64,000 nucleotides of DNA, from contig NC_031674.1 of NCBI RefSeq assembly GCF_001640025.1, positions 3,472,001 through 3,536,000 on the forward strand, written 5' to 3'. The stretch comes from Sugiyamaella lignohabitans. Its lineage: Eukaryota > Ascomycota > Dipodascomycetes > Dipodascales > Trichomonascaceae. Positions within the stretch are counted from its first letter, which is position 1. Each line of letters opens with the position of its first letter. This document shows positions 7,800 to 60,972 of the stretch, piece after piece. A program made the translations under genes and the position numbers. The notes beneath the pieces were generated by a model, which was given only the letters and a program-made list of their open reading frames with translations, ran no database searches and was not told the DNA's origin.

Positions 7800-7940
7800 T
7801 GCCTCCGGCGGCTGGGGCTCCGCCCCAGACCCTGGTTGCTCCTGCTTCGCAGGAGTTGGCGGGGGACCGTCGACGGAACCGACTCGAGCGGAGCGAGAGG
7901 AGCCACGGGGTCTGGGGCAGAGCCCCAGCCGCCGGAGGCA
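7800..7940. repeat. GC palindromic element 1 (left arm A, right arm B)
   Basis: Complete element: the left arm carries the CTCCTGCTTCGCAGGAG hairpin, the right arm the CGACTCGAG...GAGAGGAG module, with a centre of about 20 bp. It sits between two convergent stop codons, 67 bp after DCN1 and 33 bp after the peptidase gene. Confidence 0.95.
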
Positions 7941-7973
7941 CACCGGCAAACAGCACATATATTATATTACTAA

Positions 7974-9266
7974 TTAGAATTCGGCCCTAGCAAGTTCATA
8001 GGCGAAACCCAGGGTGAGCTTGGCATGTTGGTGCATGTGGTCGAAGTCGAGCACGTCGACAGTGTCGCGGGTGGTGTGAAGGTAGTGGTCGGAGCTCGAG
8101 AAGGCCGACTCGATGACGAAGGCGCTGGGGTAGCCGACCTTGGCAGCACTGGCGTGGTCAGAACAGGCGTAACCGCACTTGGTCTCAACGTAGCCGATAT
8201 CGCAATACTCCTCAACAACAAGCCTGATGAAATCGGTAAGACCCTCATCCACAAAGTCGGTGATCAGACCCAAAGAGTCGGGAGAACCATCAGCAGTGGT
8301 TCCGGCAGAGTAACCAGTCATGTCCTGTTGCAACATGGCAACAACATCAACCTCCTTCTTGGAGTAGCTGTTGAAAATGTCTTGGGATCCCCACAAACCA
8401 AGCTCTTCGGCAGAGTACCATTGGAACTCTAAAGTGTTTTCGGGCTCAAAGCCGGCCTCGGTCAAAACACGGAACACCTCGAGAATGGTAACAGTTCCAC
8501 TTCCATCGTCATCAGCACCAGGAGCAGCCAACAAAGAAGGGAACAAAAGATTGATCGAGTCTTGGTGGGCTCCAACAACTACAACCTTGTCAGGGTTCTT
8601 AGTACCGGGAATACGGGCAATAACCGACTTTTGCAGCCAGGAATGGTCGAATAAAGTAACAGTGGCCTTGTAAGCCGACTTATCAGCAATCTCCTTGACA
8701 TGATCGAACAACCATAAAGAACTGTTGAGTCCGTGCTCACTCTTGGCATAACGGGTGTGGAATGAAGAGAACTCCACCAAATTGGACTTGAGGTTGTCTT
8801 TATTCAATTGTTCAGAGAGTTTCTTGACTTCTTTACGGTAACCGACCTCAGAAGGAAACTCAACAGTGGAATTGATTCTGAGAGCAGCATTGGCAGCAGC
8901 AACTGCGACATCAGAAGAAGCACCAGATTCGGAAGCTTGGCCAAGAACTGAGTTGATTTGTGCCACATTAGAAGAAGAAGCTTCTTGGACAAGATTATAA
9001 AATTCGATATGGTCAGTGACATCGAAGAAAGTCTTGCCTTGGCGCTTAAGTTGGAGCATCTCGTCCTCAGTGGCCCAAATCTGCTCAGTTTCACTCAATT
9101 GAAGCAATCTCTGTTCAGAGCTGGCACCCAAAGGAAGTTGGACCTCACCGTTCCATAAATCGGAGACAGCTCCAGAAAAACCAGCAACCAATCCCGAAAC
9201 ACTAAGGGCATTGGCGACACCGGCACCGGCTGTGAGACCAGCAATAGCAGGGGCAAAATACTTCAT
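7974..9266 (-). CDS. Secreted leucine-type aminopeptidase, M28 family
   Basis: 430 aa with a signal peptide (MKYFAPAIAGLTAGAGVANA). After a propeptide-like region (about 20-170), the M28 zinc-peptidase domain shows the ligand set in order: VVVGAHQDS (His, Asp), GADDDGSG (bridging Asp), YSAEELGLWGS (catalytic and ligand Glu), QQDMTGYS (Asp) and SDHASAAKVGYPS (His). This matches fungal extracellular aminopeptidases of the Lap1/LapA type, which remove N-terminal residues from peptides outside the cell. The ATG at 9266 is set by the signal peptide. A short palindromic element lies just past the stop. Confidence 0.92.
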   Translation of the reverse strand: MKYFAPAIAGLTAGAGVANALSVSGLVAGFSGAVSDLWNGEVQLPLGASSEQRLLQLSETEQIWATEDEMLQLKRQGKTFFDVTDHIEFYNLVQEASSSNVAQINSVLGQASESGASSDVAVAAANAALRINSTVEFPSEVGYRKEVKKLSEQLNKDNLKSNLVEFSSFHTRYAKSEHGLNSSLWLFDHVKEIADKSAYKATVTLFDHSWLQKSVIARIPGTKNPDKVVVVGAHQDSINLLFPSLLAAPGADDDGSGTVTILEVFRVLTEAGFEPENTLEFQWYSAEELGLWGSQDIFNSYSKKEVDVVAMLQQDMTGYSAGTTADGSPDSLGLITDFVDEGLTDFIRLVVEEYCDIGYVETKCGYACSDHASAAKVGYPSAFVIESAFSSSDHYLHTTRDTVDVLDFDHMHQHAKLTLGFAYELARAEF

Positions 9267-10230
9267 TTTTAACTTAAAACAGACTTTGATTGAGACTAAC
9301 CCGGATTCAGGTCAAAAAATTATTCAAAATGAAAAAATCTCAATAACAAAGACTGATGACGAATGTTGAGATAACGATGTTGATGGCAAATATATATATT
9401 TTGATGCCGTACACACAATCCATGCAACAGTTGCGTTATCGGCGTTAGCCGGTCTGATAAGTAAGTATGGGACTCCGATGCATCTGACTGCCGCATGGGG
9501 GTACACCTGCGAACATCGCCATCACCGCCGTCCAATAGCCCTCTCACCTGCCCACTTTTTTGCAAATCGCACCCCAGGACACTCCTCTGCCCTTCGCACC
9601 ACTCTCAGCCCCCTTTCCAACTCTCCCCCTCTCCCCATCCAACCAGCAACTGCCCGTCCCCATATCTGCTTATCCGCGGCGCCCATCCGTTTACGCAGCT
9701 ACCCTATCTGGGCGCACTCCATAAACGGTATACGCATTGCCACATTGGGCCCATCCACTATACCGTTTCCGATCTCCGATACCTGGACCCTGCGTCTCAC
9801 CGGCCCAGGGGGGGTGCGCCTCCGGCGGCTGGGGCTGCGCCCCAGACCCCCCGGCTCCTCTCGCTGCGCTCGAGTCGTTTCTCCACGGTGCCAGCCAACT
9901 CCTGCGAAGCAGGAGCAACCAGGGTCTGGGGCGGAGCCCCAGCCGCCGGAGGCAGGTCCCTTCCCCTATGTGTTCCCGAGGCATATGCAGGGGGTAATTA
10001 AGCTACATAGATCGCGTCGCTAGTCTAGAAAAAAAAAAGTGGGATCTGATAGTTTAAGAGATACAAAAAGAAAACAAAAAATTCGTTTAAAGTGTAAATG
10101 AGATTATCCGGATTGAGTGAGTTCGGGGCGGTGAGGAGTGGGCTGAGGTGTGAGAGAGAGTGACGCGGCTGGGTCAGCGGTTTACGAGACTGACGCATGT
10201 TCGTGACTGGAGTCTCTATTGATTCATATC
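9267..10230. other. Intergenic: divergent promoters of the M28 peptidase and DFR1
   Basis: About 960 bp. Besides palindromic element 2 (9815-9954) there is a C-rich stretch (9540-9700) and an A-tract at 10029. Overlapping open frames here come from GC-rich repeat sequence and are not considered genes. Confidence 0.6.
9815..9954. repeat. GC palindromic element 2 (left arm B, right arm A)
   Basis: Complete element with the hairpin types in reverse order to element 1. The left-arm first hairpin reads CTGGGGCTGCGCCCCAG, a loop change that keeps the stem. Confidence 0.95.
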
Positions 10231-10833
10231 ATGTCTAGCGGCCGACCAGTTACTTTGATCCTTGCCGCGGCAGTGCCGTCGCTGGCTATTGGTAGGGGCG
10301 GGACTTTGCCGTGGAGGCTAGCCAAGGAAATGAAGTATTTTCGACAGGTGACGACCAATGGCATTGTCATCATGGGCCGCAAGACCTGGGAGTCGATTCC
10401 TGCCAAGTTCCGACCGCTGGCCGACAGGACCAATGTCGTTATTACTCGTTCTCCAGAGAACCTTCAGCTGCCAGATTCGGTGCTTGTCGCGTCGTCGCTG
10501 GAAGATGCTCAATCGAAAGTCGCTCATCTCGATGGCAGGTTATTCGTTATTGGAGGTGCTCAGTTGTACAAATCGGCTCTGCAGTTGCCGAGTACTAAAC
10601 ATGTCCTTCTTACAGAGATTTCTCATGAATTCCCGGACTGCGACGCCTTTTTTGACTACTTTCCATGGTATTCTGCTGAGACTGCTACTCCAGAAGGCGC
10701 TGAATGGACTCGTCGCTCGTTCGACCAGCTCAAGGAGTTCCTTGGTGACCAGATCCAGGATTTCACAGGTGACGATGGTAGTGTCGAGGAAAAGGGCATC
10801 CCGTACACATTCACGCTGTGGAGTAGAGACTAG
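10231..10833 (+). CDS. DFR1: Dihydrofolate reductase
   Basis: 200 aa starting MSSGRPVTLILAAAV at the first ATG of the frame. Family landmarks: the active-site stretch IGRGGTLPWRLAKEMKYF, the NADPH-binding GRKTWESIP, RPLADRTNVVITR, the glycine pair in FVIGGAQLY, and the C-terminal YTFTLWSRD. It reduces dihydrofolate to tetrahydrofolate with NADPH for thymidylate and purine synthesis. The length is normal for a fungal monofunctional enzyme. A 23-bp tandem repeat begins 31 bp past the stop. Confidence 0.96.
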   Translation: MSSGRPVTLILAAAVPSLAIGRGGTLPWRLAKEMKYFRQVTTNGIVIMGRKTWESIPAKFRPLADRTNVVITRSPENLQLPDSVLVASSLEDAQSKVAHLDGRLFVIGGAQLYKSALQLPSTKHVLLTEISHEFPDCDAFFDYFPWYSAETATPEGAEWTRRSFDQLKEFLGDQIQDFTGDDGSVEEKGIPYTFTLWSRD

Positions 10834-10864
10834 TCTGTATATATTGAGGTGTTATTTGTTCATA

Positions 10865-14751: not shown

Positions 14752-14812
14752 TGCCTCCGGCGGCTGGGGCTCCGCCCCAGACCCCATGGCTCCTCTCGCT
14801 TCGCTCGAGTCG
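14752..14812. repeat. GC palindromic element 3 (solo left arm B)
   Basis: Only the left arm is present, running from TGCCTCCGGCGG to the CTCGAGTCG end; no right arm follows within 1 kb. It lies about 80 bp upstream of the PPS1 start, so it is in the promoter or 5' leader. Confidence 0.92.
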
Positions 14813-15909
14813 TTACGTCGGGTTCCCTAACAAACGAGGTTTTTCTGACGGTCTGGGTTCCTGTTTAACATACCTTGATTGTCAAGTTTTGGTTGTTGGA
14901 TATTGGATATCGGAAATACGAGCCGGTTGTAACGTGCTTGATAAGGAAACAGCACAAAAAGAGCTCCTAGAACAGGCTCCTGGTCTTGTCACAACTCCTT
15001 TCCCCGATCTATTCCGGTCTATGGAGAAGAAAGGACGACTTAGAATCGGTACAAGATACGATTCAAGCGCAAATGGAACTCGAACTAAGTCAAAATCAGT
15101 GTGACTGGGGGGTTAGTGAATGCGATTGCTGTTGGTGATAAAGTCACCCGGGAAAAAAGTGCCGTTCGTTGTGGAAATGGTTCCGATGGTTGCTATTTGA
15201 GTGTCGAACGGTTCGGAATCGACGATTGAATGTGGTTTGGACTACAGTTGGGTCGAGAGGTGACTGCTGATGGACAGAGAAAAAAGCCCGTCGGTCGTAC
15301 CAGTCCTAGTGTAAAATGCGAAAAACTGTGAAGTAAAGCAGCAGAAGCAGCGGAGTACTCCAGCGGCACAGTTAAGACAGCATCGTTGCATATGCCGCAC
15401 GTCTGCTGCAACTTTTGCCTGCGTTTCGGCCACTGAACATGCGCTGATAAGCGCTTGCCCCGCCCCAGACCCCTCGCTGCTACTACCAGTCAGCCGGCCG
15501 ACTCCCCCTCGGCCGCGCCCTAACCCTGCACATCCTTACCCCAACCTGGGCGATGGCTTGCCCATCCGCTGCACTGATAGATCGGCCGGCGCCGATTGTT
15601 CCACACTCGTCCACAGCACCCCGGCTGCCCCTCCCCCTGAGACGGCTGCGACGCTGCCACGGCGGGGTCGCCAACCGAGTCATCCTCAGTCATCCTCAGT
15701 CATCCACTCTCCTCACCCCCCCTCTCTCCACCTCCTCCCCTTACTCTCTACAAACCACGAGCACATTCCACCGCCGAGCTCGGACCTGCCCGCCAACTCT
15801 CACCACTCAAAAAAAGGTTTCACATTCCGCTCCAAGCCAGTGGGCCCTCGCCCGCCTGAAACACATGTCTCAAGCACCATCCAATCCCAGCCCCCCGGCT
15901 CCCGACGCC

Positions 15910-15970
15910 CGACTCGAGCGCAGCGAGAGGAGCAGCGGGGTCTGGGGCGGAGCCCCAGCCGCCGGAGGCA
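15910..15970. repeat. GC palindromic element 4 (solo right arm B)
   Basis: Right arm only, followed 16 bp later by a diverged left arm, so the two arms face away from each other and not inward as in a normal element. Confidence 0.93.
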
Positions 15971-15986
15971 TACGGGGAGTGCCACA

Positions 15987-16039
15987 TGCCTCCGGCGGCC
16001 GGGCTCCGCCCGGACTGGGTTGCTCCCGCTTCGCGGGAG
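15987..16039. repeat. GC palindromic element 5 (diverged left arm, compensated hairpins)
   Basis: Variant left arm: hairpin 1 reads CCGGGCTCCGCCCGG and hairpin 2 reads CTCCCGCTTCGCGGGAG. Both differ from the consensus at paired positions so that base-pairing is kept. It lies 56 bp downstream of the SDR stop codon. Confidence 0.9.
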
Positions 16040-16095
16040 GCGTGGGAGGGTGTCAGAGGAGATACAGTTTATTCAGTTACGGAGAGAGTACAGAG

Positions 16096-17645: not shown

Positions 17646-17784
17646 TGCCTCCGGCGGCTGGGGCTCCGCCCCAGACCCCGCTGCTCCTCTCGCTGCGCTC
17701 GAGTCGTTATGTCCATGGACCAAGCCATCTCCTGCGAAGCAGGAGCAACCAGGGTCTGGGGCGGAGCCCCAGCCGCCGGAGGCA
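17646..17784. repeat. GC palindromic element 6 (left arm B, right arm A)
   Basis: Complete element with runs of G before and C after it, extending the terminal inverted repeat slightly. Confidence 0.95.
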
Positions 17785-19076: not shown

Positions 19077-20293
19077 CTACTTTTCCCAGCCCATGGCTTT
19101 GGCCAAAATACCATCAGTAACTTTGTCAAACCGGTCTACCGCACTAGAAACACTGTCTAAAGCCGGACGCACGTCAAGAATAAACGTCGGCATACCATCA
19201 TCAGTATCAGGACCGGCATAATAATCAATAACATACCGCACCTGCTGCCAATCCTGCTGCTGCTGGTCCTTGGTAGATGATGCTCGCAGAACCGTCCAAT
19301 CGTGGCGATCAAATGGAGGTTGTGTGCCATATTTAGCCGGGAACACTTTACCCAGCATCTGGAGCATCTGTGCACGAGGCGACATATCGTCAGGACGGCC
19401 TGTAAATTTCAGCAAACGAGGACTTACCGTCGACTTTTTTGTGTATGGTTCTTCCCATTTCAGAATCTCTTCCCAAGCCTCTTCATTGAGAAAGTTGTGA
19501 ACATCGACCATTGACTCGACTGCATCTTCAGGAATCTCCCCTCCTCCTTTACGAATCATGGCATTCAGCATCTGTTGAGGCGATGGATACTCCCATACAC
19601 CGTCGCCATTAGCAGTACCCTTTGGAATTGACGACATTGTCCTCTCAGTTGGCAACGCCAGTTTCTGACCTGGCGCTCGCTGCGACGACAAATCCGGCAT
19701 GTTATTCAACGGATTGATATCTGACGACCCTGTCGACACACCACCAATCGAACCAAACGGCCACCACCAGCTACCACCACTTGCACTGTTGGTGCTGGTG
19801 CTACTGGAACTGGCTGGAGCACCTGAACCAGAACCACCAGCGACTTTGGCGAACTTCGAATGGTCAACCGGACACTTTGCTTCCTCAGCATTCTTTTCAG
19901 TAAACTTTTTAGTGAACTTCGAATGGTCCACTGGACATTTAGCACCGTCTCCGCCCTCTGGCTTCGCAAACTGGCTCGTGAACTTGCCGTGGTCAACTGG
20001 GCACTTGGCCCCCTGGGACGTCTGTTAGGGTCTGTTTCGGGCACGGGACTGCCTCCGGCGGCTGGGGCTGTGCCCCAGACCCCGCTGCTCCTCTCGCTTC
20101 GCTCGAGTCGGGCGTTGGGGGTGTCGAGCTCGCGGCGGTGGCCGGCCGGTTGCCGGCTCTACCAGGGCCTATGGAGACCGATTTGCGAGTCTGGGAACGA
20201 AAAAGTGGCCGCAAAACAAAAGAAATTACTTACCTCTGGAACGGCAGCCACCGGCTGCACGCTAGCACTGGAATCAGCCCAAAACCAACCCAT
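19077..20293 (-). CDS. CYC3: Cytochrome c heme lyase (one intron containing a GC element)
   Basis: Exon 1 is 20293-20234 ([20 protein letters not shown], phase 0, donor GTAAGT) and exon 2 is 20012-19077, giving 331 aa. The acceptor is placed at CTAACAGACGTCCCAG; the AG directly after CTAAC would add three residues, but that position is skipped in other introns here. The MGWFWA start and three CPVDH(S/G)KF heme-binding CP motifs precede the lyase domain ([84 protein letters not shown]). It attaches heme to cytochrome c in the mitochondrial intermembrane space. The 221-nt intron holds a solo left arm of the GC family. Confidence 0.94.
20050..20110. repeat. GC palindromic element 7 (solo left arm B) inside the CYC3 intron
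   Basis: Left arm from TGCCTCCGGCGG to CTCGAGTCG, entirely within the CYC3 intron (20013-20233), 38 bp from the acceptor. Hairpin 1 loop is TGT in place of TCC. Confidence 0.93.
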
Positions 20294-20457: not shown

Positions 20458-20613
20458 TGCCTCCGGCGGCTGGGGCTGCGCCCCAGACCCCCCGGCTCCT
20501 CTCGCTGCGCTCGAGTCGGTGCGTCGGAGAGCCCAGTGACCCGGGGACGGACCTAGTCTCCTGCGCAGCAGGAGCAACCAGGGTCTGGGGCGGAGCCCCA
20601 GCCGCCGGAGGCA
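20458..20613. repeat. GC palindromic element 8 (left arm B, right arm A)
   Basis: First of two tandem copies. It and its upstream flank (CAGGGTCCACG) are repeated about 198 bp downstream, so the copy arose with the next one by tandem duplication. Confidence 0.95.
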
Positions 20614-20654
20614 GGGTCCGGATTCAGGGTCCACGTTTTCGGAGTCGGGGGGTC

Positions 20655-20798
20655 TGCCTCCGGCGACTGGGGCTGTGCCCCAGACCCCCTGGCTCCTCTC
20701 GCTGCGCTCGAGTCGGTGCGTCGGGGAGCCCAGTGACCCAGTCTCCTGCGAAGCAGGAGCAACCAGGGTCTGGGGCGGAGCCCCAGCCGCCGGAGGCA
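20655..20798. repeat. GC palindromic element 9 (left arm B, right arm A)
   Basis: Second tandem copy. The left arm has GGCGACTGGGG in place of GGCGGCTGGGG and a TGT loop. The centre is shorter than in element 8 (deletion of about 12 bp). Confidence 0.95.
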
Positions 20799-20940
20799 GG
20801 GTCTGGACCCTGGCCTGTGCCCCGAGCCAGCACCCATTACATCTCCCCTGTACCCCGCTCAGTGCACCCCTCTACCCTTCCACCCGCTTCGCGAACCCCA
20901 CCAGCTCCCCACGGCCCCGCGCTGCCCCTCGCCCCACGCC

Positions 20941-21000
20941 CGACTCGAGCGAAGCGAGAGGAGCAGCGGGGTCTGGGGCGGAGCCCCAGCCGCCGGAGGC
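20941..21000. repeat. GC palindromic element 10 (solo right arm B)
   Basis: Right arm only, ending GGAGGC, about 180 bp before the DCP2 start. Confidence 0.93.
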
Positions 21001-21182
21001 TGAGCCAGCCCACCCCCGCCAGGAGGACCCTTGCACCGCCGTGCGGTGGGCCCTAGCCCTGGTGGATCCAGCCAGGCACATTTCGACAGATGAGCATTGA
21101 GAGAGTGATAGAGAAGAAAGAGCATCGAGAAGAGATTGAAGAAGAAAGAACGCACCCCGTGGGCGAGAGAGAGAGAAAGAAA

Positions 21183-23175
21183 ATGTCGTTGCAACTGAGC
21201 AGCGGGCTTAAAGATAAGGATCTGGCCACGGTGCTACAGGATCTGGTGGTGCGGTTTGTAATCAACTGCCCGCCGCAGGATTTGGCGTCCACGGAACGGG
21301 TGTTTTTCCAGCTCGAGGAGGCGCAATGGTTCTATGAAGACTTCTGTCGGGTGGAATCGCCGTCGTTGCCGTCCATGAAAATGAAAACGTTTGTGGAGCG
21401 CATGTTTCAATGCTGTCCGGTGCTGTATTTATACAGTACAGACATGCTCACCGACCTGTCCAAGTTCCAGAGCTATAAAAACCTGATCCCCGTGCGCGGT
21501 GCTATCATCCTCAACAAGAAAATGACCAAAGCTCTCATGGTCAAAGGCTGGCGGTCAGACTCGCCATGGGGCTTCCCCAAAGGCAAAATCAACAAAGACG
21601 AACCCGACGAATTGTGCGCCATTCGCGAGGTCTATGAAGAAATCGGCTACGATATCTCGCCGTTCCTAGTGTCCCCCGACTACGTCGAGGTCACCATCCA
21701 ACAGAAGAGCATCCGTCTCTACATCGTACGTGGCATCCCGGGCAATACTCATTTCATGCCCCGAACTCGTAAGGAAATCAGTGTAAGTTTTCACGGGGGG
21801 AGGGGTCTACCTCCGGCGGCTGGGGCTCCGCCCCAGACCCTGGTTGTTCCTGCTTCGCAGGAGTTGGCGCAGACCGCAGACGGAAACGACTCGAGCGAAG
21901 CGAGAGGAGCCACGGGGTCTGGGGCAGAGCCCCAGCCGCCGGAGGCAGAGGGGAATTGGGTATTAACAAGGCATACAGAAAATTGAGTGGCACGACGTGA
22001 AATCGTTGCCGACGTATTCGAAGAATCGGCAGTCCAATGCGGCCAAGAATAATTATTATATGGTGGCCCCGTTTATGTCGGGCCTCGCAAAGTATATCGC
22101 CAATGCCAAGGGTCTGGCTTCCAGTTTGACGAAGTCGGAGACAAAAGCTTTGAAGAATTTACTGGGAGTCGGAAAACACCAGGCTGGGAATGCGGTTCCT
22201 AATGTTGTGGCGCATGAGGATAACGACGAGGCCGCTTTCCATTTGTTAAGTTTGTTAAAGGGAAATGCTGGTTCGGGTATGGGAGGAGGTATTTCGGGCG
22301 GTGTGGGCAGTGGAGATGGTTCGAGTGTATCGGATTCTACGAGTGCTGGTGCGTCGAGTGCGGTTTCTGATAGAAAGATTCTGCTGGATCTGGTGAATAA
22401 GGGCAATTCCGCGTCAAATGAGATTAGCAGCGAGGAACACCAGCTGGAAAGTGCCAAGGAGATTCTCAGTTTACTGAGGAACGAGCTCGAACAACCACAG
22501 CAACAAGCCATGGCGGCTCCTGTTCTTCAACCTCCTCCTATGTTTACTGGGTCAAATGGCCCTGGTCCTGGCCCTGGCCCTTTGCCATATGGAATGTACC
22601 CACCAATGCCTCCCCCACCTCATCTTGCAAACGTCATGCCTCCTATGCCTCCTCATCCTATGATGTATCCAAGCATGGGATTTGTGCCTCCTCCTCTTCC
22701 ACCTCAGCAGCTTATTGGTGAACCTGTAAAAGCACCAGCTGAGACTGGTGCCGGCAACAGTAACAGCAACAGCAACAGCAACAGACCACAGACTGGTAGT
22801 GACAACAAACAGGAGAATGGGCTGGAATCCCACAGCGAGTTTCTGGAAATCAAACCAGACTACGATCCTCCTGCTGCTCCTCCCATGCCTCCTCATATGT
22901 CTTCGTTGCTGTCATTACTCAATTCTCGAAAATCTGGTCATAAGAAGACCCCTTCGACTAGTACTGCTGATAATGATACCAGTGGTAAGTCCGAAAATGG
23001 CACTGTTCCAGCCAGTCCTAAACCGGCCGACAGACGGTTTGATTCGATGAATCGAGCCAGCAAACCAATTCATTTGAGTGACTTGCAAGTACAAGGATCT
23101 AAGTCGGGCCAGTCTGGTGGACTGGCTCTTCTGTCCTTGCTGAATAAAGAACCTACACCAGAACCGAGTCAACAA

Positions 23176-25005: not shown

Positions 25006-25222
25006 TGCCTCCGGCGGCTGGGGCTCTGCCCCAGACCCCGTGGCTCCTGCTCCGCAGGAGATCTCGCCCATGGCCCTCGTGCCTCCGGCGGCTGGGGCTC
25101 CGCCCCAGACCCTGGTAGCTCCTGCTTCGCAGGAGATTTTCAGCCCGGGACCCCCATCGCACGACTCGAGCGAAGCGAGAGGAGCAGCGGGGTCTGGGGC
25201 GGAGCCCCAGCCGCCGGAGGCA
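25006..25222. repeat. GC palindromic element 12 (two left arms A, one right arm B)
   Basis: Left arm at 25006-25061, a second left arm at about 25079-25136, and a right arm at about 25163-25222. The extra left arm looks like a tandem duplication. The element begins 63 bp downstream of the DCP2 stop codon. Confidence 0.93.
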
Positions 25223-25660: not shown

Positions 25661-25840
25661 TGCCTCCGGCGGCTGGGGCTCTGCCCCAGACCCCGCTGCT
25701 CCTCTCGCTTCGCTCGAGTCGGGCGAGGGGGACCAGGCACCAGACCTAATCCCCCTAGCGGCCCCTCTGCCCCACGCACCGACTCGAGCGAAGCGAGAGG
25801 AGCAGCGGGGTCTGGGGCAGAGCCCCAGCCGCCGGAGGCA
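25661..25840. repeat. GC palindromic element 13 (left arm B, right arm B)
   Basis: Complete element with the same hairpin type in both arms. The inverted repeat extends outward into GGGGGGCC on the left and GGCCCCCC on the right. Confidence 0.95.
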
Positions 25841-26764: not shown

Positions 26765-26766
26765 CA

Positions 26767-26922
26767 TGCCTCCGGCGGCTGGGGCTCCGCCCCAGACCCT
26801 GGTTGCTCCTGCTTCGCAGGAGAGTGCGGGACCGTGGGGGGCGGGAGGAGGGGGAGGGGACCGACTCGAGCGAAGCGAGAGGAGCAGGGGGGTCTGGGGC
26901 GCAGCCCCAGCCGCCGGAGGCA
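26767..26922. repeat. GC palindromic element 14 (left arm A, right arm B)
   Basis: Complete element. The right-arm first hairpin has a GCGCAGC loop variant that keeps the CTGGGG/CCCCAG stem. Confidence 0.95.
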
Positions 26923-27049: not shown

Positions 27050-27106
27050 TGCCTCCGGCGGCTGGGGCTCTGCCCCAGACCCTGGTTGTGCTCCGCTTCG
27101 CGGAGC
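27050..27106. repeat. GC palindromic element 15 (solo left arm, variant hairpin)
   Basis: Second hairpin reads GCTCCGCTTCGCGGAGC, a version found nowhere else in the window (type D) but again perfectly self-complementary. Confidence 0.92.
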
Positions 27107-27489
27107 GGCGGGGCCTGTTGACCTAGCGGGCTGCAGGGGTGGGGTAGCAAGGTCTGCTCGCCAGATATCAGACCTCGAGAGCCTGGAGAAGCTGACAGAT
27201 GAGCGACGAGGGGGAGGGGGGGTTGGATGAGGGGCATGAAGGACAACGGATTACGATTGATGGACTACGGACGACAGACCCAGGACTTTGAGTTCGAGGG
27301 TCAGGAACAACCACCCAACCCGGCCTAGCCCAGGGGCCTGACACTGACCCCGTTGACACGAACTGCCTCACCACGCAGGGGACTCGCGGCTGCACTGAAC
27401 GCCTCGATCAGTCTAAGTTTGGGCTTGCCCATGTCCGCCGGCTAATCACGGACCCGGTCCTAACCCAATCTCCGACGGAGGGGGGCCTA

Positions 27490-27629
27490 TGCCTCCGGCG
27501 GCTGGGGCTCCGCCCCAGACCCTGGTTGCTCCTGCTTCGCAGGAGTTTGGTGGGGTTCAACACACAACCGACTCGAGCGAAGCGAGAAGAGCCACGGGGT
27601 CTGGGGCAGAGCCCCAGCCGCCGGTGGCA
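27490..27629. repeat. GC palindromic element 16 (left arm A, right arm B)
   Basis: Complete element. The right end is GCCGGTGGCA in place of GCCGGAGGCA, and the type B module reads GAGAAGAG. Confidence 0.94.
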
Positions 27630-28578: not shown

Positions 28579-28864
28579 TGCCTCCGGCGGCTGGGGCTGC
28601 GCCCCAGACCCCCCGGCTCCTCTCGCTTCGCTCGAGTCGGTACGAGCGAGGCCGTCCTGGGGGGAAGGGGGCATGCCTCCGGCGGTTGGGGCTGTGCCCC
28701 AGACCCCCCGGCTCCTCTCGCTTCGCTCGAGTCGTTGCGTCGAGGGCCCCCTCACTCGCTGCCCCTCACACCCCGCACCAAACTACCGTCACCGTCGACG
28801 CAACGACTCGAGCGAAGCGAGAGGAGCCGGGGGGTCTGGGGCGCAGCCCCAGCCGCCGGAGGCA
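28579..28864. repeat. GC palindromic element 17 (two left arms B, one right arm B)
   Basis: Left arms start at 28579 and 28674; the right arm ends at 28864. The second left arm and the right arm pair further inward: CTCGAGTCGTTGCGTCGA on the left and its inverse around 28794 on the right. Confidence 0.93.
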
Positions 28865-29354: not shown

Positions 29355-29412
29355 TGCCTCCGGCGGCTGGGGCTCTGCCCCAGACCCCGTGGCTCGCTTC
29401 GCTCGAGCGTCG
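29355..29412. repeat. GC palindromic element 18 (solo left arm, shortened B)
   Basis: Outer block and hairpin 1 are intact; the second module is shortened to GGCTCGCTTCGCTCGAG. No right arm follows within 500 bp. Confidence 0.9.
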
Positions 29413-29578
29413 GGTGAGGGGCTCGTCGCTGGTGGGGTGTGGTGGTCTGGCCAGCGGGGACTGGGGAGAGGGCAATGCTGGTGCTGGAGTGCTGGTTTCA
29501 GGCGATGCAGCTCTCATCGGCAGCAGCAGGAGCAGGGTGGAGACGGGATCGTGTGGGTTGGGTGGCCGGCCGGTTAAC

Positions 29579-29947: not shown

Positions 29948-30131
29948 TGCCTCCGGCGGCTGGGGCTCCGCCCCAGACCCTGGTTGCTCCTCTCGCTTCG
30001 CTCGAGTCGTTTCTCCCCCCCCCTCCATCGCACCCCTCCCCTCCGCCAGCCAGCGGGGGACCCCCAACCCCGACTCGAGCGCAGCGAGAGGAGCAGCGGG
30101 GTCTGGGGCGGAGCCCCAGCCGCCGGAGGCA
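29948..30131. repeat. GC palindromic element 19 (left arm B, right arm B)
   Basis: Complete element with one of the longest centres (about 60 bp, C-rich). Confidence 0.95.
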
Positions 30132-34831: not shown

Positions 34832-34989
34832 TGCCTCCGGCGGCTGGGGCGCTGCCCCAGACCCCGTACCTGCTTCGCAGGAGAGTGCCGGGGGCCCCTC
34901 GTAACGACTGGTGAGGGCCCCACGCAACCGACTCGAGCGAAGCGAGAGGAGCAGCGGGGTCTGGGGCGGAGCCCCAGCCGCCGGAGGCA
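34832..34989. repeat. GC palindromic element 22 (shortened left arm A, right arm B)
   Basis: Left arm loses part of the spacer between hairpins and the first bases of hairpin 2 (ACCTGCTTCGCAGGAG); the right arm is intact. Confidence 0.93.
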
Positions 34990-35318: not shown

Positions 35319-35710
35319 CATATTCGCCTTGACAATATGTACCTGGCTAAGTCAGTGAGCGACTCAGTAACGCTCTATCGAACCTTCTATTAAACCCTCT
35401 TCGAACAGCCTGCAAGCGACAGTACTTCGTTCGGTACGGCTTTGCCAATTACGGCTACCGCAGCGACCGCAGCTATCGTTCTGAGCTGTCCACCAATGGT
35501 CTGGTGGGTCGTCTGCTCCCCTCACCCCACCATCTCCCCTCGTCCTTTCCCTCGCTGCCACCCTCCCTCTCACCGCTTCTCACCGCTAGCTCTTCCGCTC
35601 CCCTCCCTCCCCTCCACCGCCGGTTAATCTCCTCCCTCCCCCTCCCTGTCCCACTACCCCTCGCCCCGCCAACGCGCCTGTAACGAACTCCCCTTCACGG
35701 TCCCAGCAAC

Positions 35711-35761
35711 CGAGCGAAGCGAGCAGCGGGGTCTGGGGCGGAGCCCCAGCCGCCGGAGGCA
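35711..35761. repeat. GC palindromic element 23 (solo right arm, shortened B)
   Basis: Right arm only, beginning CGAGCGAAGCGAGCAGCGG and ending at GGAGGCA. Confidence 0.92.
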
Positions 35762-38673: not shown

Positions 38674-39043
38674 CCCCCCTCACTCCCAGCGCTGCTGTCT
38701 TTCTCCCTGCTCGCTGGCTATTTATTCACTGGTCACCACCCGGTCAACCTCCTTCTCTCTTATATATATGTATATAGCGCATATTGATCTGACTGATGAC
38801 CTTTCTACTTGGGTCGGGGAGTCTGCCTCCGGCGGCTGGGGCTCCGCCCCAGACCCTGGTAGCTCCTCTCGCTGCGCTCGAGTCGTTTCGTCGACGGTTC
38901 ACACAACTCTCCTGCGAAGCAGGAGCTACCAGGGTCTGGGGCGGAGCCCCAGCCGCTGGAGGCAGGGTCCAGCGCCGCGTGAGCCGCATGAATGAAGATG
39001 TGATCTGAAGTTGATCTGAGGTCGAACTGAAAAATAAATAAAA
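38674..39043. other. Intergenic between the winged-helix gene and NDUFAF6
   Basis: 370 bp holding element 24 and otherwise unremarkable sequence. Confidence 0.6.
38824..38964. repeat. GC palindromic element 24 (left arm B, right arm A)
   Basis: Complete element, 150 bp downstream of the preceding stop codon. The right end has GCCGCTGGAGG (one change). Confidence 0.95.
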
Positions 39044-40233: not shown

Positions 40234-40270
40234 TGCCTCCGGCGGCTGGGGCTCCGCCCCAGACCCCGTT
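40234..40270. repeat. GC palindromic element 25 (solo left arm, outer part only)
   Basis: Only the outer block and hairpin 1 (to AGACCCCGTTG) remain; the second hairpin is missing. It begins 26 bp after the NDUFAF6 stop codon. Confidence 0.9.
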
Positions 40271-40630
40271 GCGGTTTCTTTTAGACAGGCGTATCTCGCG
40301 ATCTTGCTTCGCTGAGGTCTGATTCCAAAAGATCTCTGGAACCAGTTGATAGCCGGAGCCTGACCACTGCATTGGCACCCCGAGCCATCACACTTCACAC
40401 GAAATGGTAACATTGACCACAAACCACTCTTGAAAACTGGGAATCACGGAAATCGGACTCATCATTCTGGACATGACTGAGGAACTGGGAACAGGCCCAA
40501 GCCTGACCTACTTCTGTTTTCTACTACTTTTTGTATTCATATCTAATAAACTATTCCTATTCGTTACATTCCGCAAACATGCCAGTGCACATCTTCCAAG
40601 CTCCTCAAAATTTTGTTCTAACTAGAGATG

Positions 40631-41174
40631 TGCCTTCGAAGGCTGGGGCTCCGGAACGGGCATGTCAGTGAATGGACATGTCAGTGAACAGGCGCGTCAG
40701 TGAATGGGCATGTCAGTGAATGTCAGTGATCGGGCATGTCAGTGAATGGACATGTCAGTGATCGGGCATGTCACTGAATTGAATGGGCACGTCAGTGATC
40801 AGGCGTGACATGTCAGTGAATGGACATGTCAGTGATCGGGCATGTCAGTGAATGGACATGCCAGTGAATGGATGTCAGTGATCTGGCATGTCAGTGAATG
40901 GACATATCAGTGAACGGACATGCCCTGCCCAGATCCCGTAGCTCCTGCTTAGCAAGAGATTGATAAGGCCGTCGGCGGAAACCAGAGTGAAGCGAAAGGT
41001 GCTAGGGTCCTTTGCAACCACGTAACGGGACTATGGGTGTTTATGATTCAGGGTTCTCAGTGCGACAGCAGCATATGGAAAGGACCCTCCGTCAACCACT
41101 CTTTAGGGTCCTAGCAATCTCCTGCGAAGCAGGAGCAACCAGGGTCTGGGGCGGAGCCCCAGCCGCCGGAGGCA
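40631..41174. repeat. GC palindromic element 26, left arm split by a minisatellite
   Basis: The left arm starts at 40631 (TGCCTTCGAAGGCTGGGG), breaks in the loop of hairpin 1 at about 40654, and resumes near 40923 with CCCTGCCCAGATCCC and a mutated CTCCTGCTTAGCAAGAG. A degenerate centre leads to an intact right arm A at 41119-41174. The right arm ends 41 bp from the INSIG stop. Confidence 0.88.
40655..40922 (+). repeat. Minisatellite of a 16-bp CATGTCAGTGAATGGA-type unit, about 17 copies
   Basis: Alternating units of the form CATGTCAGTGAATGGA and CATGTCAGTGATCGGG with scattered indels. It occupies the loop position of a GC-element hairpin. Confidence 0.9.
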
Positions 41175-42421: not shown

Positions 42422-43366
42422 TTTTCTGTTGAACACCTAATGAAACTGTCAGAACTAAAAAATGATCTAGATACTAGATCTTATTGTGAATCTCTTATTT
42501 TCCTTTTTTGGTCTAAAAACAACAAGTCAAAATACCAAACTTTTGTAAATATCAGGTTTAGTGAGGATGAAGTTAATCCCTGCTGCAATCTCCTATTTTG
42601 AGTAGACGTATGTTAGTAGCAAAAAGAGCAGTCTGATGAGCCGAAATACTGTCAAATATTGTCTTAAAAACGCAACCAGAAGTCTATGGTCCGTTCACAC
42701 TCTGGTGCTAGGCTCAGATTGAAAGAGAAAAATCGAGATCAAAAATTAACAAATCAAGATCAAAGTCAAGATGTACCAAAAGGCTGCTTTTGAGTTGTTT
42801 GAAGTGGATAAATAGAAAGATCTGTGCCAAAAACAGCACTTTATAAACCGACACAAGAAATAAAAACAGTTGTATGGACTCCTGTTTCAAGACAAGAGTT
42901 GTGTGCGATTTCGGATTCCGTGCTACAGATTTGTATTAAAAGCTCACGCCAGATCCAATGAAGAGCTCAGACCCAGAACCGTTTGTTATGGTAACTCGGC
43001 TGCATCAGCGTTTCTCATCTTAAATTACCAGGAGCACCTCGCTAACAGCCCTAACCCGCGAACTTTGCAAGTGATCTGGGATCCGGATTAGGGCAATGGA
43101 TCAGATGTGAGAGATCGAGGAAGATATAAATATAGATAATGAATCCATTCAACATTTTCACACTCATCACCTGATTAAATAACCAACTACGATTCAATTT
43201 CTTTGGACCATTGCCCCCAATCAACTCCTGCGAAGCAGGAGCCACGGGGTCTGGGGCGGAGCCCCAGCCGCCGGAGGCTAGAGTCCCCCTCACCCGTAGT
43301 TTCATAGGCGTGAGGATTATGGTACATATAATAAAGAGATTAATAAATAGCATTAAAAATTAGTAA
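42422..43366. other. Intergenic upstream of INSIG, downstream of the PH protein
   Basis: 945 bp of mostly AT-rich sequence with one solo right arm (43225-43278). No gene seen. Confidence 0.6.
43225..43278. repeat. GC palindromic element 27 (solo right arm A)
   Basis: Right arm only, 88 bp downstream of the stop codon of the minus-strand PH-domain gene. Confidence 0.93.
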
Positions 43367-45751: not shown

Positions 45752-46373
45752 GTTGTCAATGATGTTGTACTTTTAGTTTAGTTTAGTTTAGTCGTTGTTG
45801 TATTGCTGCCGATTCGAACTGTTGATGATAAAATCGCAATTACAAAAAGACCCAGTCAAAGTTCGAACACTGACAAGAAAATAACCTGACTTCAACACTA
45901 GCAACCCACTCATGTACAACAAATAACACCTGGTAATTACCAATCACCAAACCGCAAACCAGTGTCCCTTTTTAATTCAATCTACCGTAATCCGATATAA
46001 CCAACGTCAAAAGTTCCCAAGAAACGCACCTCAACTTCAAATACTGCCGTTCGCAAAATAACCGCTCGTCCTTCCAACCGGCTCTAATTTAATTACGTCC
46101 GCCAAACGTTGTTTTGCATCCCCAACCACAGAAGTCACGTGACCATGAACTTCATGGGCCAGAGCTCTGGGGGCATGGGTGATGGCCTCCGGCGGCTGGG
46201 GCTCCGCCCCAGACCCCGCTGCTCCTCTCGCCACGCTCGAGTCGTTGCGTAGGGGGTGCCAGGAAACTCCTGCGAAGCAGGAGCCCCAGCCGCCGGAGGC
46301 AGCGTGGCACATGAAGGGTGTGATAAAATACAGAATATTATTTACATAGTACAAAAAAGAGGTCGTTAGCGGG
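45752..46373. other. Intergenic upstream of the PH protein, downstream of THO2
   Basis: 622 bp: TTTAG repeats just upstream of the PH gene start (45772-45792) and element 28. No gene seen. Confidence 0.6.
46185..46301. repeat. GC palindromic element 28 (left arm B, deleted right arm A)
   Basis: The right arm has lost the stretch between the second hairpin and the CCCCAGCCGCC block, including half of hairpin 1. It lies 72 bp downstream of the THO2 stop. Confidence 0.93.
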
Positions 46374-52906: not shown

Positions 52907-53487
52907 ATGGTGAGTAGTACTAGTACATTTACCAGTTAAGTACCAGATGGTATTATTATGAAGATTACGACTATTGAAGAATAAACTGGCATATATTATA
53001 TTTTGAGTGGTATACTAACACAGTTGCAGGCCGACAAATTGCGAGATGAGCAGAATTTCGAGCAACTCCAGTCACGATTTATTGGAGTTGGTAACACAGA
53101 CACGACTAGAGAGTAAGTGATACAATCACAAAATGCGGTCAAACAGAGATATTCGATAGAGAGAACTAACAGCGGCACAGTCAATGGCAGTTGAACGTTC
53201 ACAGAGACAGTCTAGCGTCGTACGTGGGACACCCACCATTGCTGGAGCATTTTTCCATTGCCCTTGGAGAACCGCAATCCAGAGTTCGACAGAAGTTCAT
53301 AGACGTAAGTTCACGTTCACCCGAGGTTTTGTGTGTCGCCCCGACAAACGAGCGAAGCGAGCCACGGGTTCTGGGGCAGAGCCCCAGCCGCCGGAGGCAG
53401 ACACCGACCCCAGAATGAAACAGCGCTAACAGTGAACAGAAGATGGTTCAACCTCTCGGAGATCCAGCTAAAAACAAGGAGAAATAA
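52907..53487 (+). CDS. YSF3: Splicing factor SF3b subunit Ysf3/SF3B5 (four exons, one codon in exon 1)
   Basis: Exons 52907-52909, 53030-53112, 53181-53304 and 53440-53487 give 85 aa; human SF3B5 is 86 aa. The first coding exon is the ATG alone, followed directly by GTGAGT. The protein reads MADKLRDEQNFEQLQSRFIG, then VGNTDTTRDQWQLNVHRDS, LASYVGHPPLLEHFSIALGE, and ends KMVQPLGDPAKNKEK. It matches the SF3B5 pattern (QLQSKYIGTGHADTT, NQHRDS, YMGH, KMLQPCGPP) along its length. It is a small subunit of the U2 snRNP SF3b complex. Intron 3 (53305-53439) carries a solo right arm of the GC family. It is convergent with the queuosine gene, 26 bp between stops. Confidence 0.94.
53349..53399. repeat. 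GC palindromic element 29 (solo right arm) inside YSF3 intron 3
   Basis: A shortened right arm from CGAGCGAAGCGAGCC to GGAGGCA, with GGGTTCTGGGG in place of GGGGTCTGGGG. It is wholly within the 135-nt intron. Confidence 0.93.
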
Positions 53488-54662: not shown

Positions 54663-54904
54663 TTTTTATTTTATTTTATTTTATCTTATCCTATTTTTGT
54701 TTCCGAACCGCAGTCGTTACTTGCCTGTCTGCCTGACTACCCTCTCAATGTACCCTGAAAAATAAACTCTGGAGATCCGATCCGATCGGGACCAACCTGT
54801 CTCACATCCACACCCGCCGCACTCGCGCATAAAACAACCTCACTGTGCGGCACCTGGACCCTGACACACGGGCCCTGCCTCCTTTCCACCACCAACCCCC
54901 ACAC

Positions 54905-54957
54905 GCTCGCGAAGCGAGCACCACGGGGTCTGGGGCAGAGCCCCAGCCGCTGGAGGC
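54905..54957. repeat. GC palindromic element 30 (right arm, type C hairpin)
   Basis: Second hairpin is GCTCGCGAAGCGAGC, spaced by ACCAC from the common block. It faces away from the neighbouring left arm (element 31). Confidence 0.93.
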
Positions 54958-54978
54958 GAATCTAGGGGCCCGAGGGTG

Positions 54979-55032
54979 TGCCTCCGGCGGCTGGGGCTCC
55001 GCCCCAGACCCCGTGGTGCTCGCTTCGCGAGC
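54979..55032. repeat. GC palindromic element 31 (left arm, type C hairpin)
   Basis: Exact counterpart of element 30 in the opposite orientation (GTGGTGCTCGCTTCGCGAGC), so elements 30 and 31 form an everted pair only 21 bp apart. Confidence 0.93.
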
Positions 55033-55388
55033 GCGTGGAGGGATGAGACGCGAGGTGTTACCCCTGAGTTAGGTGAGAGGTGGACGGAGGAAATCAGAGG
55101 CTGAGAGGAAATCGCGGTTGTTTGGAGGAAACGATACTGGATCGAATAAAAAGTGTGGAACGAGGGTGCGACCGAATACAGACAGGCAATGCCCATCGGA
55201 AAAAATATGGGTGCTAAGCCCATTTTGAACCGCGAAACACGCATGCGCGGTTAGTATCATGCGATGCAATCGCAGATGGTAATCAGAGTTCGGTTGGCCG
55301 GGCTGCCAGGGTCATTTTCAGTCGGACGGTGCCAGGACTACCGATTTCCATTATCCAACGTGGATGAATGCCGTTGAGTGCACGAGCT

Positions 55389-55440: not shown

Positions 55441-55570
55441 ATGTGAAACCCAGACAACCGAAATTTGACCGCCCGAAAAACCAATTGCATTTTTTTCCAG
55501 GTTTCAGGTTCCAGGTTCGAGTCCCGAAAACCGAAACAAAAGCAAACCCAGTCCCCACGAACCGAAAAAT

Positions 55571-55625
55571 CTCCTGCGAAGCAGGAGCCACGGGGTCTGG
55601 GGCAGAGCCCCAGCCGCCGGAGGCA
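55571..55625. repeat. GC palindromic element 32 (solo right arm A)
   Basis: Right arm only, starting CTCCTGCGAAGCAGGAG and ending GGAGGCA. Confidence 0.93.
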
Positions 55626-55844: not shown

Positions 55845-56569
55845 TAAGCAAGCGGATTATTGAATATTTTTCGCGACTATAATTAAGGTTTCATGAAGAA
55901 GGTCGTGTTTGGAATAAAGTAAACAGTAACATCTTTGTTTTTGTCGAGGTGCTCATCGACTGAACACGAAGAGACGTTGGTATCAGACCGGTATATAGAA
56001 GATTTCTGGTGTCGTTCGTGGTGTTCTGTGATCAGGATCTAGTAGAAGAAGAGTGCAGACCTAATTGAAATAATTGTGTCTGTGATTATCCGTTGGAAAT
56101 TAGTACTGCAAATAAAAGTATGTTCGAGCTGTGGATGTGTTAAAAGAGTGAAGTATCGATTGAGGAGAGGGTTGTCGAACAAATCGTGTTTTGAGTGTGG
56201 TCTTTTCAGGGGAAGTCAGTTGGAGTGATTTGTTTATTGAGTACAGATGAAAACGAGTACAGAACTAGAAAGAAAAGAGAACGAGAAAAAAACGAAAAAA
56301 GGACTTTTTGCTCGTGAAACATTTGAAATCTAGTTCTGTTAATTCAGTTTACTCGTTATTTTAATGTTCGATCGGACTCTGCGACGAGTGATGAGACAAG
56401 CAGCATCTGATGTTCAGTTGCTTGGAGTAGCATATCCAGTAGATCTGGGTCTGTTTGTGCGATTTCTATTGAATGCTGGTGAATACTGGTGAATACTGGT
56501 GATATCTTTTGAACTCGACGTTTTCGGATCATTCACGATTGCAGACGTTTCCAGTGGGACCCTGACGGC

Positions 56570-56631
56570 CGACTCGAGCGAAGCGAGAGGAGCAACCAGG
56601 GTCTGGGGCGGAGCCCCAGCCGCCGGAGGCA
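56570..56631. repeat. GC palindromic element 33 (solo right arm B) in the leader of the Sel1 gene
   Basis: Right arm only, ending 64 bp before the ATG of the Sel1-repeat gene, so it is probably in the 5' UTR or in a 5' UTR intron. Confidence 0.92.
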
Positions 56632-60075: not shown

Positions 60076-60136
60076 TGCCTCCGGCGGCTGGGGCTCCGCC
60101 CCAGACCCCGCTGCTCCTCTCGCTTCGCTCGAGTCG
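60076..60136. repeat. GC palindromic element 34 (left arm B)
   Basis: Left arm starting 56 bp past the Sel1-gene stop; followed by a second left arm and not by a right arm. Confidence 0.93.
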
Positions 60137-60157
60137 GATTTCAGGGGCCCGCTCGAC

Positions 60158-60211
60158 TGCCTCCAGCGACTGGTGCGCTGCCCCAGACCCCGTGGTGCTC
60201 GCTTCGCGAGC
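60158..60211. repeat. GC palindromic element 35 (diverged left arm, type C)
   Basis: Outer block reads TGCCTCCAGCGACTGGTGCG, diverged and with hairpin 1 weakened; the type C hairpin is nearly intact (GCTCGCTTCGCGAGC). It leads directly into the decayed 90-bp array. Confidence 0.88.
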
Positions 60212-60890
60212 TCCGAGGACTGTGAAGGTCAGCTCTACAACACAACTGGGGTTCGTTCTACTAGCAACAATGCCTCTGATCTTGTTTCTCGCTTCTGAGC
60301 TCCAAAAACCGCAAAAGTGGACTTCTAACGTTGCAAAAGTGGTCTGGATATTGGCCACAATGCCCCGCGCATCCTTTCATTTTCTCTCGTTAGCTTCTGC
60401 TTCTAAGACCGTTAAAATCTATTTCGTGCGCTGCTAGGACTTCTAAAATAGAACTCTAAGACTACTACAGGGGTTTGAAACCTTCCATTATGCCCTAGAG
60501 ATCGCTTTCTTCTCACTTCACGACCTGTCAGGATCGTGAAAGTTGACCCCAACAACTCGAGGGCCTTGGTACGGGCCACAATTCTTCAATCTCATTATTC
60601 TCGTTTCGCGAGGGTTTGAAATCATGACAGTCAACTCTAACGACGCAGCAGGGGCCTGATATGGGCCACAATACTTCAGATCCCGTTATTACCGCTTCGA
60701 GAGCTGTAAGATGGTCAGCTCTAATGACACAGCATTAGTCACAAAGTCCTAGATCCGGTTATTCTCGCCTCTCGAATGTGAAAGTCGACTCTCGAGACGC
60801 GGCAGGGGTCTGGTTTTCGGTCGCGATGCCCGAAATCTCGTTGTGCTCGCTTTGCCAGTTTACAGGACCCTGACTGTCGATTCGAGTAAT
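60190..60890 (+). repeat. Decayed tandem array, about 8 units of roughly 90 bp
   Basis: Recurring words in fixed order: CTCGCTTCGCGAG-like, GTGAAAGT(C/T)GACTCTAA, GACGCAGCAGGGG, GGGCCACAATGCC, then GATCTCGTTATT. Each unit is strongly diverged. The first word matches the type C hairpin of element 35. Confidence 0.75.
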
Positions 60891-60911
60891 CTACTGGGAG
60901 CTTGCGAAACC

Positions 60912-60972
60912 CGACTCGAGCGAAGCGAGAGGAGCCACGGGGTCTGGGGCCGAGCCCCAGCCGCCGGAGGCA
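60912..60972. repeat. GC palindromic element 36 (solo right arm B)
   Basis: Right arm closing the decayed array. It ends 130 bp from the stop of the WOPR gene; the loop reads GGCCGAGCC. Confidence 0.93.

Follow-up and report, generated by a model that had tools for sequence, protein, structure and literature searches.

Dispersed through the nuclear genome of the yeast Sugiyamaella lignohabitans is a family of non-coding palindromes of about 140 bp, here described from a stretch of 64,000 nucleotides (contig NC_031674.1 of assembly GCF_001640025.1, positions 3,472,001 to 3,536,000 of the forward strand; hereafter the window) and from the rest of the genome. Each complete copy consists of two inverted arms around a short spacer. 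The key blocks of the arm match mostly intergenic palindromes of some bacteria, and the family is best read as selfish hairpin DNA that the break repair of the host copies, an explanation to which we assign a probability of about one half. No name or published description of such a family was found in the titles and abstracts consulted, none of 5.39 million papers searched contains the letters of the arm, and two genome papers on related yeasts mention no such palindromes in the parts available (PMC4022394, PMC13130702).

The abundance of the family can be read from the outer block of the arm, TGCCTCCGGCGG, which occurs 44 times in the window (22 matches on each strand). A search of the whole nuclear genome gave 5,858 exact matches (2,942 on the plus and 2,916 on the minus strand) in 15,932,016 bases on four contigs. 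The same pattern reversed, used as a control, has 0 and 2 matches on the two strands; the repeats are real and well above chance. Exact blocks are denser in the window (0.69 per kb) than in the genome on average (0.37 per kb), and by simple arithmetic (5,858 times about 65 bp) the arms amount to approximately 2.4% of the genome. When arms are defined by the 18-letter outer block with up to three mismatches, the window holds 56 of them, grouped into 31 clusters and including 17 facing pairs of 118-191 bp. One of the 56, a candidate at 40631 with three mismatches and no hairpin 1, is probably a chance match; minisatellite-like CATGTCAGTGAATGG repeats lie near it, at 40660-40760. The elements occupy about 6.2% of the window, solitary arms being counted as 65 bp with approximate ends, and their GC content is 73% compared to 47% in the rest of it.

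The dense, GC-rich family of some 36 loci and 50 arms reported by the first-pass annotation is therefore borne out, the clustering rule explaining the difference in numbers. Its size range of 130-185 bp for full copies covers 15 of the 17 window pairs and misses two. To its description of a full copy as an arm plus its inverse it can be added that most full copies are asymmetric, since their second hairpins often differ, and that many arms are solitary. The absence of coding capacity holds for the window, where nine open reading frames (ORFs) of at least 150 aa bear 22 arms between them. Pfam gave no match for eight of these ORFs, and the ninth, DCP2, carries its pair within a predicted intron.

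The anatomy was worked out on a sample comprising the window and further stretches of the same genome. It contains 156 arms, 152 of them distinct and four being repeats of the same stretch, which form 44 facing pairs (88 arms) and 68 solitary arms. From the outside inwards, the arm is composed of TGCCTCCGGCGG, hairpin 1 (CTGGGGC-NNN-GCCCCAG, with the triloop TCC or TCT in most arms), ACCC with a linker, and a second hairpin. The latter comes in three types, a (CTCCTGC-TTC-GCAGGAG), b (GCTCCTCTCGCTTCGCTCGAGTCG) and c (GCTCGC-TTC-GCGAGC and similar), and lies outside all type patterns in 31 of the 156 arms. The outer block is exact in 112 arms (67 of 88 paired, 45 of 68 solitary). Immediately beyond the arm, a stretch of 14 bases is rich in G and in most cases finishes with (T/C)C ahead of TGCC. 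An extreme of this outer tract is seen at 26740-26766, where roughly two dozen consecutive Gs directly adjoin an element.

The median length of the facing pairs is 140.5 bp. Half of them (22 of 44) combine an a arm with a b arm and can be aligned end to end, the spacer contributing 22 shared columns; this commonest full copy has an a arm and a b arm flanking a 22-bp spacer and measures about 140 bp. Its core, GCTCCTGCTTCGCAGGAG-N14-40-CGACTCGAGCG, is present 1,058 times in the genome (529 matches per strand; control 0), and the spacers of the roughly one hundred matches listed run from close to the consensus ATTGCTGGGACCGTCGACGGAA through to unrelated sequence. One copy folded as DNA reached -65.8 kcal/mol (z = -10.1), and no Rfam family matched the window above its gathering score. 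At 20428-20807, a unit of about 197 bp that comprises one element together with the flank to its left is tandemly duplicated, with 96% identity in the element halves and 86% in a 28-nt flank. The terminal repeat at the very start of one contig (C2, positions 1-60) includes a hairpin, AAATTTTAGGC-TTC-GCCTAAAATTT, whose TTC triloop is that of the second hairpins.

Arms and spacers have fared very differently. Across the 22 aligned a-b copies, the spacer has a per-site diversity of 0.437, compared to 0.073 for arm b, 0.031 for the whole of arm a and 0.011 for the part of arm a formed by outer block and hairpin 1; the arm values are biased low because these copies were chosen via their arms and second hairpins. 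The identity of outer block and hairpin 1 (0.866 to 1.0) does not track spacer identity (rho 0.17, p 0.45, n = 22); its mean is 0.970 in the five copies with spacers below 60% and 0.975 in the other 17, and conservation stays near 97% at spacer identities from 45% to 95%. Among 14 hits obtained with the spacer only, ten have at least one arm within two edits of the 33- or 34-letter consensus, five have both and four have neither. For solitary arms with room for a partner, the best facing match downstream (30 letters, n = 62) lies within one edit in four cases and at eight or more edits in 58, and the empty interval of 2-7 edits arises partly by construction, as partners with up to three mismatches had already been classed as pairs. 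Upstream, two partners are within two edits and 60 at nine or more. From these partner distances and the spacer-anchored hits it follows that arms are mostly retained or lost and seldom half-decayed.

The copies are scarce in coding DNA and indifferent to the orientation of genes. Only 28 of 137 yeast arms lie inside ORFs of at least 150 aa, which make up 58% of the bases; 22 of the 28 fall in the nine window ORFs to which the Pfam comparison applied and the remaining six lie outside the window. The fractions of arms in convergent, divergent and tandem gaps (20, 24 and 60 arms, or 0.19, 0.23 and 0.58, n = 104) resemble those of the bases (0.16, 0.27 and 0.57). In DCP2, a 140-bp copy takes up most of a predicted intron of 196 bp. 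Excision of 21783-21978 fuses ...RTRKEIS with KIEWHDVKS... in frame. Three alternative splice choices also preserved the open frame, and the one chosen restores what we take to be the Dcp2 sequence. This predicted intron lies within the region coding for the NUDIX domain, and the ORF finder splits the gene there.

The elements do follow regional base composition. The number of arms tracks the arm-masked GC content of 5-kb bins (rho 0.77, n = 50), rising from 0.08 arms per bin below 42% GC to 5.5 at 48-52%, and the GC content at third codon positions (GC3) of nearby long ORFs follows likewise (rho 0.44, n = 59). No arms were found within the first 10 kb of any of the four contigs. In the stretches sampled, the genome is organized in GC domains, from 41% to over 50%, which coding GC3 parallels and with which element density coincides.

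In the favored explanation, such elements spread without any enzyme of their own. The arms would likely extrude as hairpins or as a cruciform while the DNA is single-stranded. Hairpin tips are opened by nucleases of the Mre11/Sae2 type. Cutting or mis-repair of the palindrome centre would scramble the spacer, repair that copies arms from other copies would keep the arms alike, and the same copying would seed new sites at G-rich tracts, in the form of whole elements or of solitary arms. Spread by break repair is favored because no enzyme of the families searched and no consistent target duplication accompanies the family, solitary arms occur, the centre is scrambled while the arms are conserved, and the copies are tied to GC-rich domains. 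For the plastids of algae, palindrome-driven breaks followed by error-prone repair have been proposed in the part of the literature available (PMC7043297); the shuffling and stem conservation of mitochondrial GC42 (PMC4478555) and the arrival of organelle palindromes in the Volvox nucleus (PMC2670323) are further precedents.

The sequences closest to the yeast arm were found in bacteria, which the first-pass annotation had not suspected; they are mostly intergenic palindromes, and among fungi the comparison covered this yeast's genome only. Some bacterial palindromes have 26 letters in common with the yeast arm (CCTCCGGCGGCTGGGG ... CCCCAGACCC), which flank a stem that is variable and covaries. 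When the genomes of bacterial and archaeal species were scanned with CCTCCGGCGGCTGGGGN{3,20}CCCCAGACCCC, at least 120 stretches were obtained. Among the matches listed are Roseococcus, Polymorphobacter, Solidesulfovibrio and Pseudodesulfovibrio, metagenome-assembled genomes (MAGs) of Acetobacteraceae and Sphingomonadales, further alphaproteobacteria, a MAG of Myxococcota and isolated cases elsewhere. In 15 bacterial genomes, selected because they matched, the 26-letter pattern occurs 278, 228, 182, 166, 56, 47, 45, 44, 33, 12, 9, 4, 3, 1 and 1 times, and the yeast genome has 5,471 exact occurrences of CCTCCGGCGG with the stem base CTGGGG, its complement CCCCAG and the ACCC tail. The control pattern is absent from all 16 genomes. 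The bacterial stems pair at 0.746 compared to 0.508 after shuffling (46 distinct stems, none of 1,000 shuffles as high), and with a relaxed pattern the listed variants of the stem base, T-A and C-G, appear as pairs. A facing arm is present within 320 bp of 96 of the 156 bacterial arms having room for one. Bacterial arms, too, are under-represented in ORFs, which make up 84.5% of the bases but contain only 63 of 170 arms, and an A-rich purine tract lies outside them. The host range is patchy: in one phylum and two orders, the genome at the centre of the comparison was the sole match (1 of 398, 1 of 150 and 1 of 118, in partly overlapping draws), and the relaxed pattern was positive in 3 of 110 genomes, two of them by a single match.

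Three viral contigs contain exact matches to TGCCTCCGGCGGCTGGGGC. Two of these contigs, phage-like and alphaproteobacterial as judged from their ORF lists, bear the arm in inverted pairs, and the third match looks like chance. The half motif CTGGGGCTNNGCCCCAGACCC is present in 28 viral contigs, several of which have tandem hairpins and repeated ACCC tails; the outer block precedes it in none of the printed contexts, and one of the 28 has CCTCCGGCGG elsewhere. The half motif alone may therefore arise repeatedly; what argues for a shared family is its combination with the outer block. The viral hairpins themselves, CTGGGGC-NNN-GCCCCAGACCC, lie on contigs of 41-73% GC, some nearly identical to one another, and in several a second hairpin with an ACCC tail of its own follows. 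Nucleotide searches (blastn) gave no match when a yeast element and a bacterial element were each compared with plasmids, nor when a second yeast element was compared with phages, and a translated element-bearing ORF used as protein query for other yeasts found nothing at E <= 1.

The letters shared by yeast and bacteria exceed chance by the reversed control. A rough estimate counts about 20 independent agreeing letters (17 of them G/C), too few for a phylogeny, and puts chance agreement near 1e-10 per family of GC-rich hairpins, selective convergence being outside the estimate. The yeast and bacterial repeats may share descent, probably by way of DNA transfer, or may have converged on a sequence that some common protein reads. 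A bolder and distinctly tentative proposal would see a single enzyme-less palindrome lineage in bacteria and in a eukaryotic nucleus, with the arm as the replicator: it would have crossed domains, reached thousands of copies in the yeast, been homogenized by repair, and settled in GC-rich and presumably recombination-prone domains.

Several points weigh against selfish hairpins copied by break repair and related to bacterial ones. Mobility itself is deduced, no empty site, polymorphism or new insertion having been observed. The 140-bp architecture that half of the pairs have in common would equally be expected of an element moved by a transposase, and outer ends that are exact to the letter are unexpected from sloppy repair alone. 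The longest direct repeat beside the pairs is slightly longer than after shuffling (mean 4.49 versus 4.07, one of 200 as high). Besides the constructed part of the gap in partner distances noted above, partners at 8-10 edits are found downstream in 11 of 62 cases compared to 4 of 62 upstream, which hints at some decayed partners. The two arms of one pair barely agree beyond chance (triloops 16 of 34 versus 13.6 shuffled, linkers 16 versus 12.5). Gene conversion between the arms of one element thus finds no support, and homogenization, if it occurs, acts between copies and not within one. Profile searches covered only four transposase families with named prokaryotic genomes as controls: Y1_Tnp (RAYT), MULE and DDE_3 gave no match in the yeast genome, with profiles that match 5, 3 and 3 of 14 controls, respectively, and the hAT search matched no control and is hence uninformative. 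On the bacterial side, the second hairpins a, b and c are each absent from the 120 loci and type a has no match in the viral contigs. Furthermore, 33 neighboring exact bacterial arms comprise 30 that face each other, two back to back and one in the same direction, and the listed myxobacterial neighbors are back-to-back pairs.

The main rival, which we consider rather unlikely, holds that the palindromes are non-autonomous DNA transposons resembling miniature inverted-repeat transposable elements (MITEs), with terminal inverted repeats of about 60 bp. Their transposase would have been lost, have diverged or belong to a family other than those searched. In favor of this are the facing inverted arms, which end sharply on the outside, the length of about 140 bp seen in half of the pairs, the presence of thousands of copies, few of them in coding DNA, and the slight excess of flanking direct repeats. 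However, no target-site duplication of constant length emerged in 43 pairs, where every combination of offset and length stays at or below the 95% level of the maxima obtained by shuffling; three of the four repeat lengths equal that level. Solitary arms are common (68 of 156), the yeast genome has no MULE or DDE_3 match, and the arms would be expected to decay alongside the spacer but do not. The non-autonomous mobile family suggested by the first-pass annotation agrees with the copy number, the lack of genes and the lack of a partner in the searched families. Classical transposition is not demonstrated, there being neither a consistent target duplication nor a Y1_Tnp, MULE or DDE_3 match. 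Specific partners were also considered. Mobilization by RAYT is unsupported, Y1_Tnp being absent from the yeast and present in 2 of 12 arm-bearing bacterial genomes, and for Mutator-like and Tc1/mariner-like partners the empty MULE and DDE_3 searches apply.

Alternatively, the arm could be a functional element, such as a bidirectional terminator, a boundary, a protein-binding site or a replication signal, whose sequence is under selection in bacteria and yeast and therefore convergent. Twenty-six specified letters common to unrelated genomes and covarying stems would suit this explanation, as would the A-rich purine tract of the bacterial copies, with which arms read outward would resemble terminators. 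We nevertheless regard it as improbable. The yeast copies prefer neither gene ends nor an orientation, and for lack of an orientation bias a terminator or promoter role in yeast finds no support. They occur in a predicted intron and between divergent genes, and they nearly vanish (0.08 arms per 5 kb) from domains below 42% GC. In bacteria, the draws of 398, 150 and 118 genomes from the same phylum or orders each had a match in the centre genome only.

A relocation of mitochondrial GC clusters or double-hairpin elements to the nucleus, the other suggestion of the first-pass annotation, found no support and is very improbable. The general form is that of elements residing in fungal mitochondrial DNA (mtDNA), and palindromes of organelle type do reach the nucleus of Volvox according to the available part of one report (PMC2670323), but by the same partial account they constitute about 0.06% of the nuclear sequence analyzed there, compared to about 2.4% of the yeast genome, and the relatives found are bacterial, in a comparison that among fungi covered this yeast only. 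The four contigs of the assembly measure 2.3-5.9 Mb, none being of mitochondrial size. An assembly artefact, which palindromes that are difficult to sequence might suggest, is practically negligible given thousands of copies with differing spacers and flanks on contigs of 2.3-5.9 Mb, one of them inside a well-formed predicted intron.

Table 1. Elements and solitary arms in the window (window coordinates). Arms were located by a scan for the outer block with up to three mismatches and facing arms were joined; the 65-bp rows have approximate ends.
Feature	Position	Strand
Full a-b element, 141 bp	7800..7940	+
Full a-b element, 138 bp, b arm leading on + strand; flanked by M28 peptidase and DHFR genes in divergent orientation	9817..9954	-
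Solitary arm, type b	14752..14816	+
Solitary arm, type b	15906..15970	-
Solitary arm, variant second hairpin CTCCCGC-TTC-GCGGGAG	15987..16051	+
Full a-b element, 139 bp	17646..17784	-
Solitary arm, type b	20050..20114	+
Full a-b element, 156 bp, copy 1 of local tandem duplication	20458..20613	-
Full a-b element, 144 bp, copy 2 of tandem duplication	20655..20798	-
Solitary arm, type b	20937..21001	-
Predicted DCP2 intron (GTAAGT ... TATTAAC ... CAG), holds element 21808-21947	21783..21978	+
Paired element, 140 bp, within predicted DCP2 intron	21808..21947	+
Solitary arm immediately ahead of full element	25006..25070	+
Full a-b element, 143 bp	25080..25222	+
Paired element, two b arms, long spacer, 180 bp	25661..25840	.
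Full a-b element, 156 bp, adjoins long G run	26767..26922	+
Solitary arm, second hairpin GCTCCGC-TTC-GCGGAGC	27050..27114	+
Full a-b element, 140 bp	27490..27629	+
Solitary arm, type b	28579..28643	+
Paired element, two b arms, 191 bp	28674..28864	.
Solitary arm	29355..29419	+
Paired element, two b arms, 184 bp	29948..30131	.
Full a-b element, 141 bp	33848..33988	-
Paired element, one degraded arm, 132 bp	34493..34624	.
Paired element, 158 bp	34832..34989	.
Solitary arm	35697..35761	-
Full a-b element, 141 bp	38824..38964	-
Solitary arm without clear second hairpin	40234..40298	+
Solitary arm, type a	41110..41174	-
Solitary arm, type a	43215..43279	-
Paired element, right arm truncated, 118 bp	46184..46301	.
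Solitary arm	53335..53399	-
Solitary arm, type c (GCTCGC-TTC-GCGAGC)	54894..54958	-
Solitary arm, type c, in back-to-back arrangement with 54894..54958 arm	54979..55043	+
Solitary arm, type a	55561..55625	-
Solitary arm, type b	56567..56631	-
Solitary arm, type b	60076..60140	+
Degraded arm, 3 mismatches in outer block	60158..60222	+
Solitary arm, type b	60908..60972	-

Bacterial chromosomes and organelle DNA are known to carry short palindromes that look selfish, and how these spread is unsettled. Its nuclear setting and copy number make the yeast family an unusual one among them, and near-identical arms beside scrambled spacers, available by the thousands, make spread by break repair and spread by a transposase genetically testable against each other. 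What most deserves to be followed is the arm that scattered bacteria share letter for letter. Were it due to descent, a gene-less repeat would have crossed domains; were it due to convergence, unrelated genomes would be selecting one specific sequence for an unexplained reason. Either would be new.

Among the known systems, MITEs resemble the yeast family in their terminal inverted repeats, lack of genes and high copy number, and differ from it in that the yeast elements have no consistent target duplication, no partner among the searched families and many solitary arms. Repetitive extragenic palindromes (REP) and the composite BIME elements, which are associated with RAYT, are likewise short, intergenic, abundant and arranged singly or in inverted pairs; the yeast arm, however, has no GTAG/CGTC tag, its outer end being TGCCTCC or a close variant of it among the arms listed. 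According to the available part of a survey of the GTAG/CGTC families, CGTC repeats are missing in Acetobacteraceae (PMC3733652). The GC42 clusters of Saccharomyces mtDNA, as far as described in the part available (PMC4478555), share with the yeast family GC-rich palindromes, stems conserved above loops, and the merging and shuffling of units, but they are mitochondrial and have AG target nucleotides, whereas the yeast family is nuclear and without consistent target duplication; AG nucleotides on both sides were not seen, there being no constant flanking repeat. The organelle palindromes of Volvox and other chlamydomonadalean algae fill intergenic and intronic DNA, have loops of 3-5 nt, are inserted into one another and also occur in the nucleus (PMC2670323, PMC7043297, both in part); the motifs in the available literature are other ones, and the nuclear copies are judged inert and rare. 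The closest relatives found are the bacterial CCTCCGGCGGCTGGGG-stem-CCCCAGACCCC palindromes. They lack the second hairpins of the yeast arm among the 120 loci, have an A-rich and not a G-rich outer tract, and differ from one another in the inner stem, which is mostly CC..GG in alphaproteobacteria and mostly GGCCTGAGGCC in Solidesulfovibrio. Like the yeast family, they have the outer block, the stem base and the ACCC tail, often form inverted pairs around variable spacers, are under-represented in ORFs, bear a purine tract on the outside and, in the genomes richest in them, number from tens into the hundreds.

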